A DNA stretch of 64,000 nt, taken from positions 124,001-188,000 of the forward strand of contig NZ_DF820484.1 in assembly GCF_000691805.2 (NCBI RefSeq), written 5' to 3'. The DNA comes from Weissella oryzae SG25 (GTDB taxonomy: Bacteria > Bacillota > Bacilli > Lactobacillales > Lactobacillaceae). Of the stretch, positions 45,180 to 50,042 are shown one piece after another. The notes below the pieces were generated by a model. It did no database searches and was not told where the DNA came from. It saw only the letters and a list, made by a program, of their open reading frames with translations. A program made the position numbers and the translations under genes. Every line of letters starts with the position of its first letter. Positions within the stretch are counted from its first letter, which is position 1.

Positions 45180-46607
45180 TTATTTCTTATGATAATTAAT
45201 TGAATGGCGCCGACTATAGAATAGATAGAAGGCAGCTCCCAAAATTAACCAGCCAATCATTAAGATTTGTGCATCTGCATTTAGTGAGATTAACAAAGCT
45301 AATGATGATAAGGCGGCCAAAATTGGCAACACTGGGTAAAATGGCAACTTATAACCAGAATGGTCAATATCCTTACGCTGCCGTAAGAAAATCACCCCAA
45401 CTGAAGCAACTACGAAAGCAATCAAAGTTCCAGCTGAAACCAGATTAGCTAAGACTGCTACTGGGAAGATTGCCCCCAATACTACTCCAACAATGGTCAA
45501 TAGCCAAACAGCATTCGTTGGTAACTTATTTTTATCTAACTTACCAAAGGTCTTTGGCAACATGCTATCACGCCCAAATGAATAAACTAAACGTGAACCA
45601 CCGACCATCAAACCAATTAAGCCAGCAAACATACCCACCAAGGCCACTAGCGACAACAAGTTGGCCGTAAAGACATGACCAGCCTGACGCAAAGCCCAAG
45701 CAGCTGGTTCAGCATTACCAGCATATTTAGAATAATGGAACATTCCAGTCAAAACACTGGCAACAGCGATAAAGAGTAAGGTTGCAATTACCAACGTTCC
45801 AATAATAGCCTTTGGCATCGTCTTTTGAGCATCTTTAACTTCGGCCGAATTAGCAGCCAACATATCAAAACCAAGGTAGGCAAAGAATACCTGTGAAGCA
45901 CCCATCATAATTCCGTGCCAACCACCAAAATTAGTACCTGGCCGATGTGCTGGAATAAATGGTTGCCAGTTTTGGACGTGTACAGCTGTCAAACCAACCG
46001 CCACGAAAATCAAGATAACGGCAACTTTACCAATTACCAACCAATTTTCAATAATTGCTACACCCTTCATACCACGGGCAACCAAATATCCTACCCCAAT
46101 TAAGGCCAAAGCACCAAATAAATCAAACCAACTTCCCGTTGAAAGATTAAAAGAGGCGCCGATGATTGTTGGTACTTTAAAGCCTAAACTACCAACAAAG
46201 CCTTGGAAGTAGGCTGACCATGACGAAGACACTAAGGCTAAGGCCACGACATATTCAGCCAAAATTGCCCAACCAACCATCCAACCAGTAAATTCACCAA
46301 AAATTACGTTCGCCCAAGTATAAACCGAACCGGCAAAAGGCATCGCCGACGCAAATTCTGAGTAAGCCAAGGCTGATAGACCAGCTATCAAGGCTGCGAC
46401 TACAAAGGATAGGACCACCGCTGGCCCAGCATATTCTGCGGCCACAATTCCCGGCATGGTAAAGATTCCAGCACCAACAACCGTTCCAATCCCCATGGCA
46501 ATCATCTCTTTAGTACCCAAAACTGGCTTTAACTTACCATCTTTATCAGCATAAGTCTGTGGATTTTCCTTGACCCAAAACTGTGCAAAAAAACTCTGTT
46601 TTCCCAT
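45180..46607 (-). CDS. APC family amino acid permease (BcaP/CAT-like)
   Basis: 475 aa, about 12-13 helices. Start region LGTKEMIAMGIGTVVGAGIFTMPG (about 29-52), MPFAGSVYTWANVIFGEFTGWMVGWAILAEYVVA (about 91-124), FFAYLGFDMLAANSAEVKDAQKTMPKAIIGTL (about 240-270). Clearly paralogous to the permease at 48603-50009, which it faces across a divergent control region. Likely a branched-chain or cationic amino acid carrier; exact substrate unknown. GGAGAG precedes the ATG. Confidence 0.85.
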   Translation of the reverse strand: MGKQSFFAQFWVKENPQTYADKDGKLKPVLGTKEMIAMGIGTVVGAGIFTMPGIVAAEYAGPAVVLSFVVAALIAGLSALAYSEFASAMPFAGSVYTWANVIFGEFTGWMVGWAILAEYVVALALVSSSWSAYFQGFVGSLGFKVPTIIGASFNLSTGSWFDLFGALALIGVGYLVARGMKGVAIIENWLVIGKVAVILIFVAVGLTAVHVQNWQPFIPAHRPGTNFGGWHGIMMGASQVFFAYLGFDMLAANSAEVKDAQKTMPKAIIGTLVIATLLFIAVASVLTGMFHYSKYAGNAEPAAWALRQAGHVFTANLLSLVALVGMFAGLIGLMVGGSRLVYSFGRDSMLPKTFGKLDKNKLPTNAVWLLTIVGVVLGAIFPVAVLANLVSAGTLIAFVVASVGVIFLRQRKDIDHSGYKLPFYPVLPILAALSSLALLISLNADAQILMIGWLILGAAFYLFYSRRHSINYHKK

Positions 46608-46913
46608 AATCTCTCCATTCGATCTGCGTTACTGTTAGAAGCAAACTTTACTAAGCTCCAAATTCTTGCGAAAACTCCATCAATAATTATTATAAGAAGT
46701 TAAATGAAATTGCATATCTTGTATTTTATCATAAAATCCATTTTAATCTAAGCTAAATCTAATTGATTGAAGCTTTATTCGAGCATTTTACCTGTTTTTT
46801 TGTAAAAATATCTAAGCGTCAATTCAAACGACAGCCTTTTATAAAAGGCTTTATTAGCCAATTAACAATACATCAAAACGAAAATCTTTGTAAATCAGCC
46901 TTATCAAGCTTAA
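46608..46913. other. Divergent intergenic region
   Basis: About 300 bp without a supported gene. It contains a short perfect palindrome GCCTTTT AT AAAAGGC (46834-46849) of unknown role. Confidence 0.4.
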
Positions 46914-46965
46914 ATTAGAAAAAGATTAGAAAAAAGCTTGTATTATTAAAAAATGAGCGTAATAT
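46914..46965 (+). promoter_or_regulatory. Leader promoter with A-rich shared element
   Basis: -35 TTGTAT (46938-46943), 16 bp, -10 TAATAT (46960-46965). Just upstream, 46914-46940 carries two TTAGAAAAA repeats spaced 11 bp then GCTTG; nearly the same sequence precedes the leader at 53521. UP-element or activator site. Confidence 0.6.
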
Positions 46966-46996
46966 GTTAAACATCAAAGCAAAGGAGGACGTATTT

Positions 46997-47089
46997 ATGT
47001 TTACAACAGCAAGTGTTAATTATACTAAGACTCAAGTTATGGACGTCGTCCTCCCAATTATTATTATTGTCATTACTGTACTTCAATAA
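46997..47089 (+). CDS. 30-aa branched-chain-rich leader peptide
   Basis: ATG at 46997 with AAAGGAGG 8 nt upstream and TAA at 47087-47089. The C-terminal 14 residues, VVLPIIIIVITVLQ minus nothing else, hold eleven Val, Leu or Ile, with four consecutive ATT codons. This is the composition of ilv/leu attenuator leader peptides such as E. coli IlvL. About 155 nt further, past competing RNA stems and an intrinsic terminator, lies the gene for an isoleucine 2-epimerase-like enzyme. A regulatory peptide is the best reading; a small membrane peptide is the alternative because the same run could insert in a bilayer. Confidence 0.65.
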   Translation: MFTTASVNYTKTQVMDVVLPIIIIVITVLQ

Positions 47090-47109
47090 TAATGATTGGC
47101 TTTTAGACG

Positions 47110-47216
47110 TGGCTAATCATAAACTATTTTGTTTTTGTTAGCCAAGTTTAAACCACTTTTTTAATTAACGTGTTTATTCTTGAAAGCTAACATCAACCAT
47201 GGTGTTAGCTTTTTTT
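47110..47216 (+). promoter_or_regulatory. Attenuator: competing stems and intrinsic terminator
   Basis: Terminator AAAGCTAACA (47183-47192) with TGTTAGCTTT (47203-47212) and a T run to 47216. The same GCTAACA (47186-47192) pairs with TGTTAGC at 47136-47142, an antiterminator; that segment in turn pairs with TGGCTAA at 47110-47116. Confidence 0.65.
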
Positions 47217-47244
47217 ATCCCCATTATCACGAAAGGAGCTTATT

Positions 47245-48579
47245 ATGCAGAGTAATAACCAAGTCCTTGCAGCCGAAGCAGACTGCCTACCCACAAGTTC
47301 ACGGATTAAGTATTTTGATATGGTCCTCGACCATGGTCAAGGTGCAATCCTGGTAGATGTAGAGGGTCATGAATATATTGACTTGCTAGCTAGTGCATCT
47401 TCAGCAAATACTGGGCATGCCCACCCCAAAGTTGTTCAGGCCATCCAGCAGCAAGCCGCCAAGTTAATCCATTTCACCCCTGCTTACTATGCTAATGAAG
47501 TTACGGCTAGCCTGCTCAATCGTTTAGCCGCGTTAGCACCTGGTGACTTCCCTAAGAAAGTTGCCTTTGGTACTTCCGGTTCTGATGCTAACGACGCCAT
47601 GATTAAATATTCACGGGCCTATACGGGGCGCCATTATATTATTTCTTTCACTGGTGCGTATCACGGCTCAACTTACGGTGCAATCAGCCTATCGGGCGTC
47701 AGCTTAAATATGGCGCGTAAAATTGGTCCACTCCTACCAGACATCATCAAGATGCCCTTCCCCGACCCACATCTTAAATTAGCCGGTGAAAGTGAAGCGG
47801 CCTTTGTTGACCGTATGTGGCAAATGTTCATGCTCCCCTTTGAAAACTGGCTCCCGGTTGAAGAAGTTGCTGGGATTCTTATCGAACCAATTCAAGGTGA
47901 TGGTGGCTTGGTCGCTACCCCACACGCTTATATGGATAAACTTTATCAATTTACACGTGCACACAACATCGTTTTCGCCGTTGATGAAATTAATCAAGGT
48001 TTTGGTCGCTCTGGTAAGATGTGGTCAATTGATCATTATCAGATTGCTCCTGATTTAATGAGTATTGGTAAATCCCTCGCTTCAGGTATGCCAATTTCAG
48101 CTTTGATCGGCCGCAAAGAAATCCTTGATAGCCTTGATGCACCAGCGCATCTATTTACAACCTCCGGCAATCCCGTTTGTGCTGCTGCAGCACATGCGAC
48201 ATTGGACGTAATTGAAGCAGAACACTTAGTGGAACGTTCCGCCAAGCTTGGTCAAATGGCCAGTACATTTTTTACCCGGATGCAACAAAAGTTCTCCTTT
48301 GTGGGTGCCGTCCGGATGTTTGGCCTTAATGGTGGAATCGATATTGTGGATCAAGATGGTCAAGCCGATGTCGACGCAACAACCGAAATTATTTATCATC
48401 TTTTCAAAGCCGGCGTCATCATGATTTCGCTCCGGGGTAATATCCTGCGTTTTCAACCACCACTAGTTATTTCAGAAACTCAACTTGAAACCGCCTTTCA
48501 ACGAATTGAAGCCGTTTTTGAGGCCAAAGCTAAGAATCAACTCACCCTACCAAACGATGCTGACGCAATTGGTTGGTAA
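47245..48579 (+). CDS. Isoleucine 2-epimerase-like PLP-dependent aminotransferase class III
   Basis: 444-aa fold-type I PLP enzyme. It follows the Lactobacillus isoleucine 2-epimerase pattern, as I recall it, almost throughout: VDVEGHEYIDLLASASSANTG, TPAYY, GTSGSDANDA (109-118, cofactor phosphate), YHGSTYG (139-145), EPIQGDGG (214-221), AVDEINQG (245-252), PLP-lysine Lys276 in LMSIGKSLASGMP, FTTSGNPVC and the C-terminal IGW. That enzyme racemises the alpha carbon of Ile, Leu and Val, giving D-allo-Ile. AAAGGAGC precedes the ATG. Operon with a BcaP-like permease and controlled by a BCAA-rich leader. A GABA- or ornithine-type transaminase is the less likely alternative. Confidence 0.8.
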   Translation: MQSNNQVLAAEADCLPTSSRIKYFDMVLDHGQGAILVDVEGHEYIDLLASASSANTGHAHPKVVQAIQQQAAKLIHFTPAYYANEVTASLLNRLAALAPGDFPKKVAFGTSGSDANDAMIKYSRAYTGRHYIISFTGAYHGSTYGAISLSGVSLNMARKIGPLLPDIIKMPFPDPHLKLAGESEAAFVDRMWQMFMLPFENWLPVEEVAGILIEPIQGDGGLVATPHAYMDKLYQFTRAHNIVFAVDEINQGFGRSGKMWSIDHYQIAPDLMSIGKSLASGMPISALIGRKEILDSLDAPAHLFTTSGNPVCAAAAHATLDVIEAEHLVERSAKLGQMASTFFTRMQQKFSFVGAVRMFGLNGGIDIVDQDGQADVDATTEIIYHLFKAGVIMISLRGNILRFQPPLVISETQLETAFQRIEAVFEAKAKNQLTLPNDADAIGW

Positions 48580-48602
48580 CTCTCAAACCAAAGGAGCACA
48601 AT

Positions 48603-50009
48603 ATGCAATTTACTCGTAATGTTAATTTTAATGATTATAGTCGTAAAGATGAAAAACTAGCCAAAGTCTTGAAAACCCGCGACTTCCTAGCCTTAGGGGT
48701 TGGAACAATCATCTCAACCTCCATTTTTACCCTTCCTGGTGTGGTTGCTGCTAGCTACGCTGGACCCGCCGTCGTATTTTCTTTTTTGATTGCCGCCGTC
48801 ATTGCCGGTATGGTTGCCTTCGCTTACGCTGAAATGTCAACAGTGATGCCCGTTGCTGGTTCGGCTTATTCTTGGATTTCAGTCCTCTTCGGTGAAGGTT
48901 TCGGCTGGATTGCTGGTTGGGCACTCCTAGCCGAATACTTCATTGCCGTTGCCTTTGTTGGTTCTGGTTTTTCAGCTACCTTCCAACAATTGATGGGAAC
49001 TTTAGGCCTTAAACTTCCCGCCGCACTGGCCAGCCCCTTTGGTACTAATGGCGGTGTGGTTGATTTGACCTCATTTCTTGTTATCATCATCTCAGCCTTA
49101 ATCGTCTGGCGTGGCGCTTCTGATGCCGGTCGCGTTAGCCAGGTATTGGTTGTCCTAAAAGTATTAGCAATCGTCGCTTTCGTTATCGTTGGTGCCCTTG
49201 TTATCAAGCCACATAACTATGTACCCTTTGTGCCGGCTCACAATCCTAAGACTGGCTTCGGTGGACTTGCTGGTATCTTAAGTGGTGTTTCCACAATCTT
49301 CTTGGCCTATATCGGCTTTGATTCAATCGCTGCCAATGCGGCTGAAGCTGCGGATGCTCGTAAAACGATGCCGCGTGGTATCTTAGGTTCACTATTAATT
49401 GCGGTTGTCCTATTTTCTGCTGTTACCTTGGTCCTTGTTGGTATGCACCCTTATAGTGACTATGCCAACAATGCTGCTCCTGTTTCATGGGCCTTGAGCA
49501 AGGCCGGCTTTGTCCTTTTGTCACAAGTTGTATCTGTGGTCGCCGATGCCGGTATGTTTGTCGCCTTACTAGGTATGGAACTAGCTGGTTCACGTTTACT
49601 CTACTCGTTTGGTCGTGATGGTATGTTGCCAAAGGCGCTAGGTAAGCTTGATAATAAGCATTTACCAAGCAATGGACTCCTTGTCCTTACAATCGTTGCC
49701 GTTGTTATCGGCGCTTTCTTCCCCTTTGTCTTCTTGGCAAAATTAATCTCAGCTGGTACTTTGGTTGCCTTCGCCTTCGTTTCTTTGGGAATGTTTGCGC
49801 TAAGACGCCGTGAAGGTAAAGATTTACCAGAAGCAAGTTATAAGATGCCTTTCTATCCGGTCCTACCTGCGCTTGGCTTCCTAGGCTCACTTTGGGTCTT
49901 TTACTTACTAGATACTCCTGCTAAGTTGTACACCGCCGTCTGGTTCGTACTTGGTCTGGTTATCTACTTTGTTTATGGTAGTCGTCATAGTAAATTGCAC
50001 CATGATTAA
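48603..50009 (+). CDS. Branched-chain amino acid permease (BcaP-like, APC family)
   Basis: 468 aa from ATG 48603 (AAAGGAGC upstream); the frame is open further 5' without a ribosome site. About 12-13 helices: TRDFLALGVGTIISTSIFTLPG (about 25-46), MPVAGSAYSWISVLFGEGFGWIAGWALLAEYFIAV (about 82-116), FLAYIGFDSIAANAAEAADARKTMPRGI (about 238-265). Very close to Lactococcus-type BcaP permeases by my reading. It starts 24 bp after the epimerase gene, so import or exchange of BCAA is coupled to their epimerisation. Operon ends at a perfect terminator. Confidence 0.85.
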   Translation: MQFTRNVNFNDYSRKDEKLAKVLKTRDFLALGVGTIISTSIFTLPGVVAASYAGPAVVFSFLIAAVIAGMVAFAYAEMSTVMPVAGSAYSWISVLFGEGFGWIAGWALLAEYFIAVAFVGSGFSATFQQLMGTLGLKLPAALASPFGTNGGVVDLTSFLVIIISALIVWRGASDAGRVSQVLVVLKVLAIVAFVIVGALVIKPHNYVPFVPAHNPKTGFGGLAGILSGVSTIFLAYIGFDSIAANAAEAADARKTMPRGILGSLLIAVVLFSAVTLVLVGMHPYSDYANNAAPVSWALSKAGFVLLSQVVSVVADAGMFVALLGMELAGSRLLYSFGRDGMLPKALGKLDNKHLPSNGLLVLTIVAVVIGAFFPFVFLAKLISAGTLVAFAFVSLGMFALRRREGKDLPEASYKMPFYPVLPALGFLGSLWVFYLLDTPAKLYTAVWFVLGLVIYFVYGSRHSKLHHD

Positions 50010-50014
50010 AAAAT

Positions 50015-50042
50015 AAAGAGCCAGCCCAAGGGCTGGCTCTTT
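50015..50042. terminator. Terminator of the epimerase-permease operon
   Basis: AAAGAGCCAGCCC / GGGCTGGCTCTTT, loop AA, then T run. Confidence 0.9.

Follow-up and report, generated by a model that had tools for sequence, protein, structure and literature searches.

A putative leader-peptide attenuator ahead of an isoleucine 2-epimerase–permease operon in Weissella oryzae, and related leaders before uptake genes of Lactobacillaceae

How is an operon for the salvage of branched-chain amino acids (BCAA) regulated in a member of the Lactobacillaceae, a family in which regulation of this sort is usually ascribed to T-boxes and CodY? The question is raised by a 64-kb stretch of the Weissella oryzae SG25 genome (the window, to which all coordinates refer), where a short ORF ending in Ile, Val and Leu codons lies ahead of an isoleucine 2-epimerase-like gene. 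The original prediction had proposed leader-peptide attenuation of this gene and the permease gene behind it. We found this reading well supported. In homologous leaders from four same-genus genomes the mutually exclusive helices persist through compensatory changes, and we put at roughly 0.87 the probability that the region is a ribosome-mediated transcription attenuator, which would read the supply of charged tRNA-Ile (and of the Val and Leu tRNAs) and allow read-through when Ile or BCAA are short.

The operon and its leader region

The operon comprises the following features.

47245..48579, + strand: isoleucine 2-epimerase-like gene, first of the operon, with the Shine-Dalgarno (SD) sequence AAAGGAG at 47232-47238 (sequence, family and structural relatives)
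48600..50009, + strand: BcaP/AAP-like APC permease gene, second of the operon (family scan and relatives)
50015..50042, no strand assigned (listed for the - strand): inverted repeat of 12 bp, likely operon end (pattern scan)

The closest solved relatives of the first product were the isoleucine 2-epimerases 5wya, 4ysn and 5ll2, over residues 14-444, and on the strength of these nearly full-length matches it is a putative isoleucine 2-epimerase. The predicted resemblance of the permease to BcaP was confirmed, yet both neighbouring APC permeases (48600-50009 and 45180-46607, the latter gene oriented divergently from the epimerase operon) scored under the NCBIfam BcaP cut-off. In the organism's own genome (99.55% complete) we found no match to PF01450 (ketol-acid reductoisomerase, IlvC) or to PF06018 (CodY), and the positive controls worked. 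The organism is probably a BCAA auxotroph, and the operon likely serves the salvage of BCAA and D-BCAA in a cell without a recognisable ketol-acid reductoisomerase or CodY.

The order epimerase then permease is common to the window and Lactococcus, and in most relatives the permease comes first. Lactococcus epimerases were 69-74% identical to that of the window, and the window permease was 77.6-77.8% identical to those of loci L001 and L002. In the seven same-genus genomes where the epimerase search gave a strong match, identity was only 56-60% and the permease came first. Because gene order and identity are closer to Lactococcus than to same-genus genomes, the operon may have been acquired. 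Searches of plasmid and viral collections gave no close relative, the best plasmid epimerase being 57.5% identical. Thirteen Pediococcus plasmid records were among the matches to the epimerase. In three plasmid loci the gene order alone was examined, and a permease–epimerase pair was seen on a Weissella confusa plasmid (L117) and on a Pediococcus pentosaceus plasmid (L119), in one record each.

Upstream of the epimerase gene we read the following elements.

46912..46936, + strand: ATTAGA(G)AAA / ATTAGAAAA-type element, possible operator, adjoining the promoter (read from sequence and pattern search)
46938..46965, + strand: promoter-like pair TTGTAT (46938-46943) and TAATAT (46960-46965), 16 nt spacing (by eye)
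46981..46988, + strand: SD AAAGGAGG of the leader ORF (read directly)
46997..47089, + strand: leader peptide ORF of 30 codons, MFTTASVNYTKTQVMDVVLPIIIIVITVLQ, ATG at 46997, stop at 47087-47089 (read directly)
47182..47216, + strand: intrinsic terminator 4:5, 14-bp stem 47182-47195/47200-47213 and T run (sequence, fold and stem list)

The ORF, its SD, its BCAA-rich end and the terminator before the epimerase gene can all be read directly, as had been claimed. The end of the ORF reads VVLPIIIIVITVLQ, placing an Ile/Val/Leu run at the C-terminal end of the peptide, with five Ile, four Val and two Leu in codons 17-29. Among the 48 short ORFs with an SD in the 64 kb (distinct stops, both strands), this was the only one whose C-terminal half was at least 60% Ile, Leu and Val. 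A spacer of 92 nt separates the ORF from the intrinsic terminator. The locus has the layout of an attenuator: a leader ORF with a strong ribosome-binding site between the promoter-like pair and the epimerase gene, regulatory codons within the leader, and an intrinsic terminator ahead of the first gene. The promoter-like pair is absent from the list of window promoters given by a consensus scan. A simple terminator pattern scan omits 47182-47216, perhaps because the extended stem uses part of the T run.

The ATTAGA(G)AAA element stands beside TTGAC or TTGTAT at 14 of 23 related loci (L080-L085, L089, L133-L135, L170 and L172-L174), and its single occurrence in the window is 46912-46936. A spaced ATTAGAAAA-TTG pattern gave no match in the 64-kb window; the ATTAGA(G)AAA matches came from a looser pattern. 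Directly beside the -35 box, the element recurs at promoters of permease–epimerase operons and at oppA attenuator loci. Given that CodY is not recognised in the window genome, the element may be the operator of another regulator.

Exclusive helices and the modelled ribosome

Besides the terminator, the leader RNA can form these helices, named by the segments that they join.

47054..47099, + strand: protector helix B:1, 47054-47069 (codons Pro20-Val25) with 47084-47099, 16 bp (stem list)
47092..47120, + strand: helix 1:2, 47092-47101 with 47111-47120, 10 bp (stem list)
47110..47144, + strand: helix 2:3, 47110-47117 with 47137-47144, 8 bp (stem list)
47136..47192, + strand: antiterminator 3:4, 47136-47142 with 47186-47192, 7 bp (stem list)
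47096..47190, + strand: alternative antiterminator 1:4, 47096-47106 with 47180-47190 (stem list and folding; window only)

The strongest stems in 46978-47217 were 4:5, B:1, the SD with codons 17-20 (46984-46991 with 47047-47054), 1:2, 1:4, 2:3 and 3:4. B:1, second in strength to the terminator, joins the Ile codons to bases around and past the stop. Two pairings had been predicted, and both are present essentially as described: TGGCTAA (47110-47116) pairs with TTAGCCA (47138-47144), and TGTTAGC (47136-47142) with GCTAACA (47186-47192). The prediction had overlooked B:1, 1:2, 1:4 and the pairing of the SD with leader codons. In the series B:1, 1:2, 2:3, 3:4 and 4:5, the formation of any one helix rules out the one that follows it. 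Against shuffles, the fold of the leader is non-random (z = -7.18). A four-link exclusive chain ending on the terminator arm was absent from all 4000 spacer shuffles and from all 4000 wider ones, by a statistic defined after the sequence had been seen.

Helix probabilities were then computed for each position of a modelled ribosome, folding only the RNA downstream of it (A site +14) at a stage when segment 5 has yet to be transcribed. Without a ribosome, B:1 had a probability of 0.92; with stalls at codons 2-15, it reached 0.98-1.00 and 3:4 stayed at or below 0.18. Stalls at I22-V25 gave 1:2 with 3:4 at about 0.49, plus 1:4 at about 0.42, and a ribosome at the stop gave 2:3 at 0.87 and 3:4 at 0.00. 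Pairing of the 5' arm of the terminator with anything upstream was 0.60-0.86 for stalls in codons 16-29. In the off states this blocking was 0.36 without a ribosome, 0.01-0.36 at codons 2-8, 0.56 at codon 9, 0.19-0.31 at codons 10-15, 0.47 at Q30 and 0.30 at the stop. The contrast between on and off states was 0.52, compared with 0.008 ± 0.104 in 960 spacer shuffles, of which one was as high; footprints from +11 to +17 moved the profile by about two codons. These results suggest that the formation of the exclusive structures depends on ribosome position in the window, in computation, and the picture for relatives is mixed (see below). When the whole RNA including segment 5 was folded at equilibrium, the terminator 4:5 had a probability of 0.85-0.96 in every ribosome state. 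Since the terminator wins all equilibrium states, and 3:4 has only 7 bp, the switch would have to be kinetic, by capture of segment 4.

In the mechanism that we propose, the Ile-codon arm would pair with segment 1 when no ribosome is present or when one stalls in codons 2-15, so that 2 would pair with 3 and leave 4:5 free. With ample BCAA, a ribosome at the stop would cover segment 1, 2:3 and 4:5 would form, and transcription would end. When Ile, or neighbouring Val or Leu, is short, the ribosome would stall in the BCAA-rich stretch and block B:1; segment 1, once released, would pair either with 2, freeing 3 for 4, or with 4 directly. RNA polymerase would then read through into the epimerase and permease genes, leading to the salvage of BCAA, including D-BCAA. 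The sequence elements, a pairing network beyond chance, compensatory changes and the return of the module in other genomes with another codon run are observed; we infer that the promoter-like pair is used, that the leader is translated and ribosomes stall on it, that segment 4 is captured kinetically and that starvation leads to read-through. The original prediction held that the sign of the response could not be read from the fold alone. With modelled ribosome positions the sign becomes arguable: without a ribosome, in most early stalls or with a ribosome at the stop, the terminator is kept largely free by B:1 and 2:3, and antitermination is favoured by stalls in about codons 16-29. Blocking in the off states stays above zero, and both the sign and the response are predictions.

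The same RNA switch could be triggered by general ribosome stalling or nascent-peptide arrest, under drug or stress, and not by aminoacyl-tRNA supply. Leader-peptide switches that respond to drugs exist, and a stall anywhere in about codons 16-29, non-BCAA codons included, gives similar folds. Runs of a single amino acid (Ile, Phe or Trp) before amino-acid and peptide uptake genes, described in the next section, argue against such a trigger, which we consider quite unlikely.

Relatives of the leader at other uptake genes

For the attenuator reading charged tRNA supply, conservation upstream of epimerase homologues had been named as a test that could refute it. The outcome was negative: no leader was found at 38 inspected epimerase loci (some genomes twice), nor ahead of the first gene in 27 loci, by inspection of printed sequence with coarse ORF and terminator filters. 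As the attenuator was not seen at epimerase relatives, conservation gives no test of its association with this gene pair. In 397 genomes, a DNA similarity search with the leader gave, beyond its own locus, only short matches, the best with an E value of 8.9e-5 and judged to be chance. Relatives of the leader were detected by covariance model and missed by the DNA search; the conservation lies in the RNA module, before other uptake genes.

A one-sequence covariance model, R1, holding B:1, 2:3 and 4:5 with 1:2 left out, matched strongly in four same-genus genomes, at five loci with leaders. Their peptides (MKNVSVEKLNVMTLVAPIIIA) have four or five Ile followed by SQ or LQ, and the loci precede a gene for an OppA-like binding protein. 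Where scanned, the gene after oppA encodes a hydrolase of the proline-iminopeptidase type (L134) or an amidohydrolase of the Xaa-Pro-dipeptidase type (L132). In its own genome R1 found one copy, the remaining matches being antisense to the attenuator or having E >1. Low R1 matches L125-L127 had no leader, and L128-L131 were left out of inspection.

In a MAFFT alignment of the window with its closest relatives (six sequences, five distinct), 11 of 42 pairs had changed on both sides, compared with 2.5 ± 1.4 in shuffles (0/500 reaching 11) and 0-2 with slid structures; this is essentially one window sequence set against one clade, retrieved by a model holding three of the helices. Against the oppA leaders, 5 of the 16 pairs of B:1 had changed on both sides, with 100% of lettered cells paired, and likewise 4 of 15 aligned pairs of the terminator 4:5. 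Helix 1:2 kept all nine aligned pairs, one of them changed on both sides, a value reached by 92 of 500 shuffles. Helix 3:4 has 7 bp in the window and in the oppA leaders, with one pair changed on both sides (register set by hand). Judged from these alignments, the RNA module is conserved in relatives with compensatory changes, though it was not seen ahead of epimerase relatives.

The module recurs elsewhere with its codon run exchanged. Two further covariance models, R2 and R3, were run over 397 Lactobacillaceae genomes, and a locus was counted when, besides a model match, it had a leader ORF whose amino-acid run stood where expected. This gave 31 leader-bearing loci with homologous or look-alike attenuators in 22 of the 397 genomes and 8 genera, window included. 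The run was of Ile in 25, Phe in three and Trp in three. Ile leaders precede genes for the epimerase (1), OppA (7), BrnQ (9), PTS_EIIC_2-type proteins (4), metabolite/H+ symporters (3) and a hydratase-like protein (1), and all three Phe and all three Trp leaders precede oppA; examples of each target family were scanned and the others assigned by visible similarity. Five leaders (L183, L185, L186, L191 and L192) lack an SD by the pattern used, and that of L177 starts with GTG. Weak model matches mean little alone: within the window there are four from R2, of 21-26 bits. No leader ORF was found at 12 of 21 inspected R2 loci, which were dropped; 16 of 18 new R3 loci had a leader (L187 none, L189 ambiguous). 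Antisense and partial matches, such as L165, L166 and L169, fell outside the inspected set.

The Trp-run leaders, ISWWWPTR or ISWWWPAR before an OppA-like gene (L178, L179 and L180), resemble the textbook trp leader but are placed on peptide uptake, and L178 and L180 show the four-link chain. The Phe-run leader FAFFFFKKR stands before another OppA-like gene (L172, L173 and L174) in three genomes that also carry the Ile version, and an Xaa-Pro-dipeptidase-type gene is found at these oppA loci (family scan: L172). Ile-run leaders before PTS_EIIC_2 membrane proteins (L150, L155, L156 and L193; L150 and L193 scanned, the others by similarity) hint that these proteins may be linked to BCAA. An Ile-run leader precedes a 2-keto-4-pentenoate-hydratase-like gene in L192 (Leuconostoc gelidum genus group), and at L189 a longer Ile-rich ORF lies before a gene similar to it.

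The exclusive chain was found in many, not all, members. A four-link chain exceeded all shuffles in the window and four OppA loci (0/300 each) and in L171 and L156 (0/300 each), and a three-link chain was detected in L149 and L155 (0/300) and L150 (1/300); none was detected in the three Phe leaders. When the thresholds were loosened, four links were seen in 10 of 18 members (0/400 each; L149, L150 and L156 among them) and three in L192 (2/400); detection failed in L176, L177, L184, L188 and L190 and was weak in L183 and L185. In an alignment of 12 sequences (A4), which was fitted to the structure, both sides had changed in 29 of 42 pairs. Of the 11 members folded with a ribosome, all had 2:3 at 0.87 or more at the stop. 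On a stall, 1:2 climbed above its value without a ribosome and reached 0.4 or more in seven (L182 also had 0.48 at codon 4), reached only 0.18 in L149, did not rise in L178 and L156, and in L181 had formed already without a ribosome. Helix 3:4 was at least 0.4 on a stall in five (window, L150, L181, L182 and L186), one of which shows it without a stall as well; L181 also reached this level at codons 4 and 8. It stayed at 0.00 in L134 and L136. The arm-blocking profile was fairly clean in the window and not clean in the five OppA relatives folded.

These relatives also bear on the reading of the ORF as a functional small hydrophobic peptide, such as a membrane peptide or type I toxin, that has a terminator to itself and to which the enzyme gene would be incidental. 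The hydrophobic C-terminal half and the downstream terminator are in keeping with such a peptide, and the lack of an NCBIfam family match is uninformative at 30 aa. Other members, however, have FFFF and KKR, or WWW and PTR, in the same place in peptides that are otherwise little alike, and the codons also serve as one arm of a helix whose partner beyond the stop shows compensatory changes, making a functional peptide very unlikely. Control by a T-box or another tRNA- or metabolite-binding leader is barely credible here: the genome has 12 T-box (RF00230) matches, three over the family cut-off and one, by eye, preceding an apparent isoleucyl-tRNA synthetase gene, but none lies in the window, and no Rfam family matched the site at gathering score. 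A Qrr match at the site in an Rfam search with E up to 1 was sub-threshold (20 bits against a gathering score of 50, E 0.4) and was rejected. At the attenuators of 14 other loci Rfam gave sub-threshold noise only, a partial T-box at L193 lying at the far upstream end; in the relatives' operons (10 of the 20 loci fetched) a single T-box was found, in L078, about 2.3 kb ahead of the permease. That the pairings are incidental in AT-rich DNA, with only a constitutive promoter, an ORF due to chance and a partial terminator present, has negligible probability even with a chain statistic designed after viewing the sequence, given the shuffle tests, the covariation and the recurrence of leader and chain in other genera.

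Comparison with known attenuators and meaning for amino-acid scavenging

The enterobacterial ilvGMEDA and leu attenuators (PMC6123439, as far as cited here), and likewise that of trp, resemble the window in layout: they have a leader with regulatory codons, protector and terminator hairpins, and the read-through on starvation that is predicted here. They control biosynthetic operons, and the window adds the link 1:2, which would free 3 for 4, between protector and terminator. According to the parts of PMC5794164 and PMC6123439 used here, BCAA leader-peptide attenuation of biosynthetic operons has been established for enterobacteria; there is support for it in S. aureus and L. monocytogenes, and it has been predicted for L. 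lactis, corynebacteria and streptococci. The S. aureus ilv-leu attenuator, backed by mutants and reporters, shares with the window a short BCAA-rich ORF, a terminator before the first gene and the predicted read-through on shortage (PMC5794164, relevant parts). It differs in serving biosynthesis, with CodY as main regulator and a Leu response, whereas the window has salvage and uptake genes and no CodY was found; its antiterminator, as described there, pairs with the poly-U tail, whereas the window network is B:1, 1:2, 2:3, 3:4 and 4:5 (same parts of PMC5794164). The His leaders of Firmicutes resemble the window in being regular leader-peptide attenuation that replaces T-boxes, but read histidine where the Lactobacillaceae leaders have Ile, Phe or Trp runs; Lactobacillales his genes use T-boxes (PMC9413887 and PMC2965389, in the parts drawn on).

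The ILEP-AAP operon of lactic acid bacteria encodes the same types of enzyme and transporter as the window, with proposed production, storage and re-use of D-BCAA (PMC11907396 and PMC6053490, sections cited). We found no regulation described for it in those sections, and the main text of PMC11907396 contains neither 'regulat' nor 'upstream'. Other leader-ORF motifs are reported in a survey of 26 genomes, and 'lactobacill', 'leuconostoc' and 'weissella' are absent from its main text (PMC8632094). Among the open-licence papers that our searches listed we found no description of an attenuator before the epimerase, as the original prediction had also stated, or before BrnQ or OppA in Lactobacillaceae. 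This kind of attenuator is known; its targets, its lineage and the codon-swapped class were not found described in those papers.

We think it fairly probable that the leaders form a class of codon-swappable leader-peptide attenuators (Ile, Phe or Trp) in Lactobacillaceae, which would control acquisition and not biosynthesis and would stand in for CodY and T-boxes. Its proposed targets are BrnQ, OppA with proline peptidases, the D-BCAA epimerase with its importer, PTS_EIIC_2-type proteins and symporters. Leader-peptide attenuation would thereby be extended to amino-acid scavenging genes in this family. The codons of each leader point to the amino acid that its uptake gene may serve, and poorly understood transporters, such as the PTS_EIIC_2-type proteins and the symporters, gain a testable link to isoleucine. 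In leader-bearing lactic acid bacteria, the D-BCAA enzyme is predicted to be made on BCAA shortage, a timing that fits the re-use of stored D-BCAA. Induction of an importer and a racemase on Ile shortage in a probable auxotroph would fit the storage and re-use role proposed for ILEP-AAP (PMC11907396, in the part cited).
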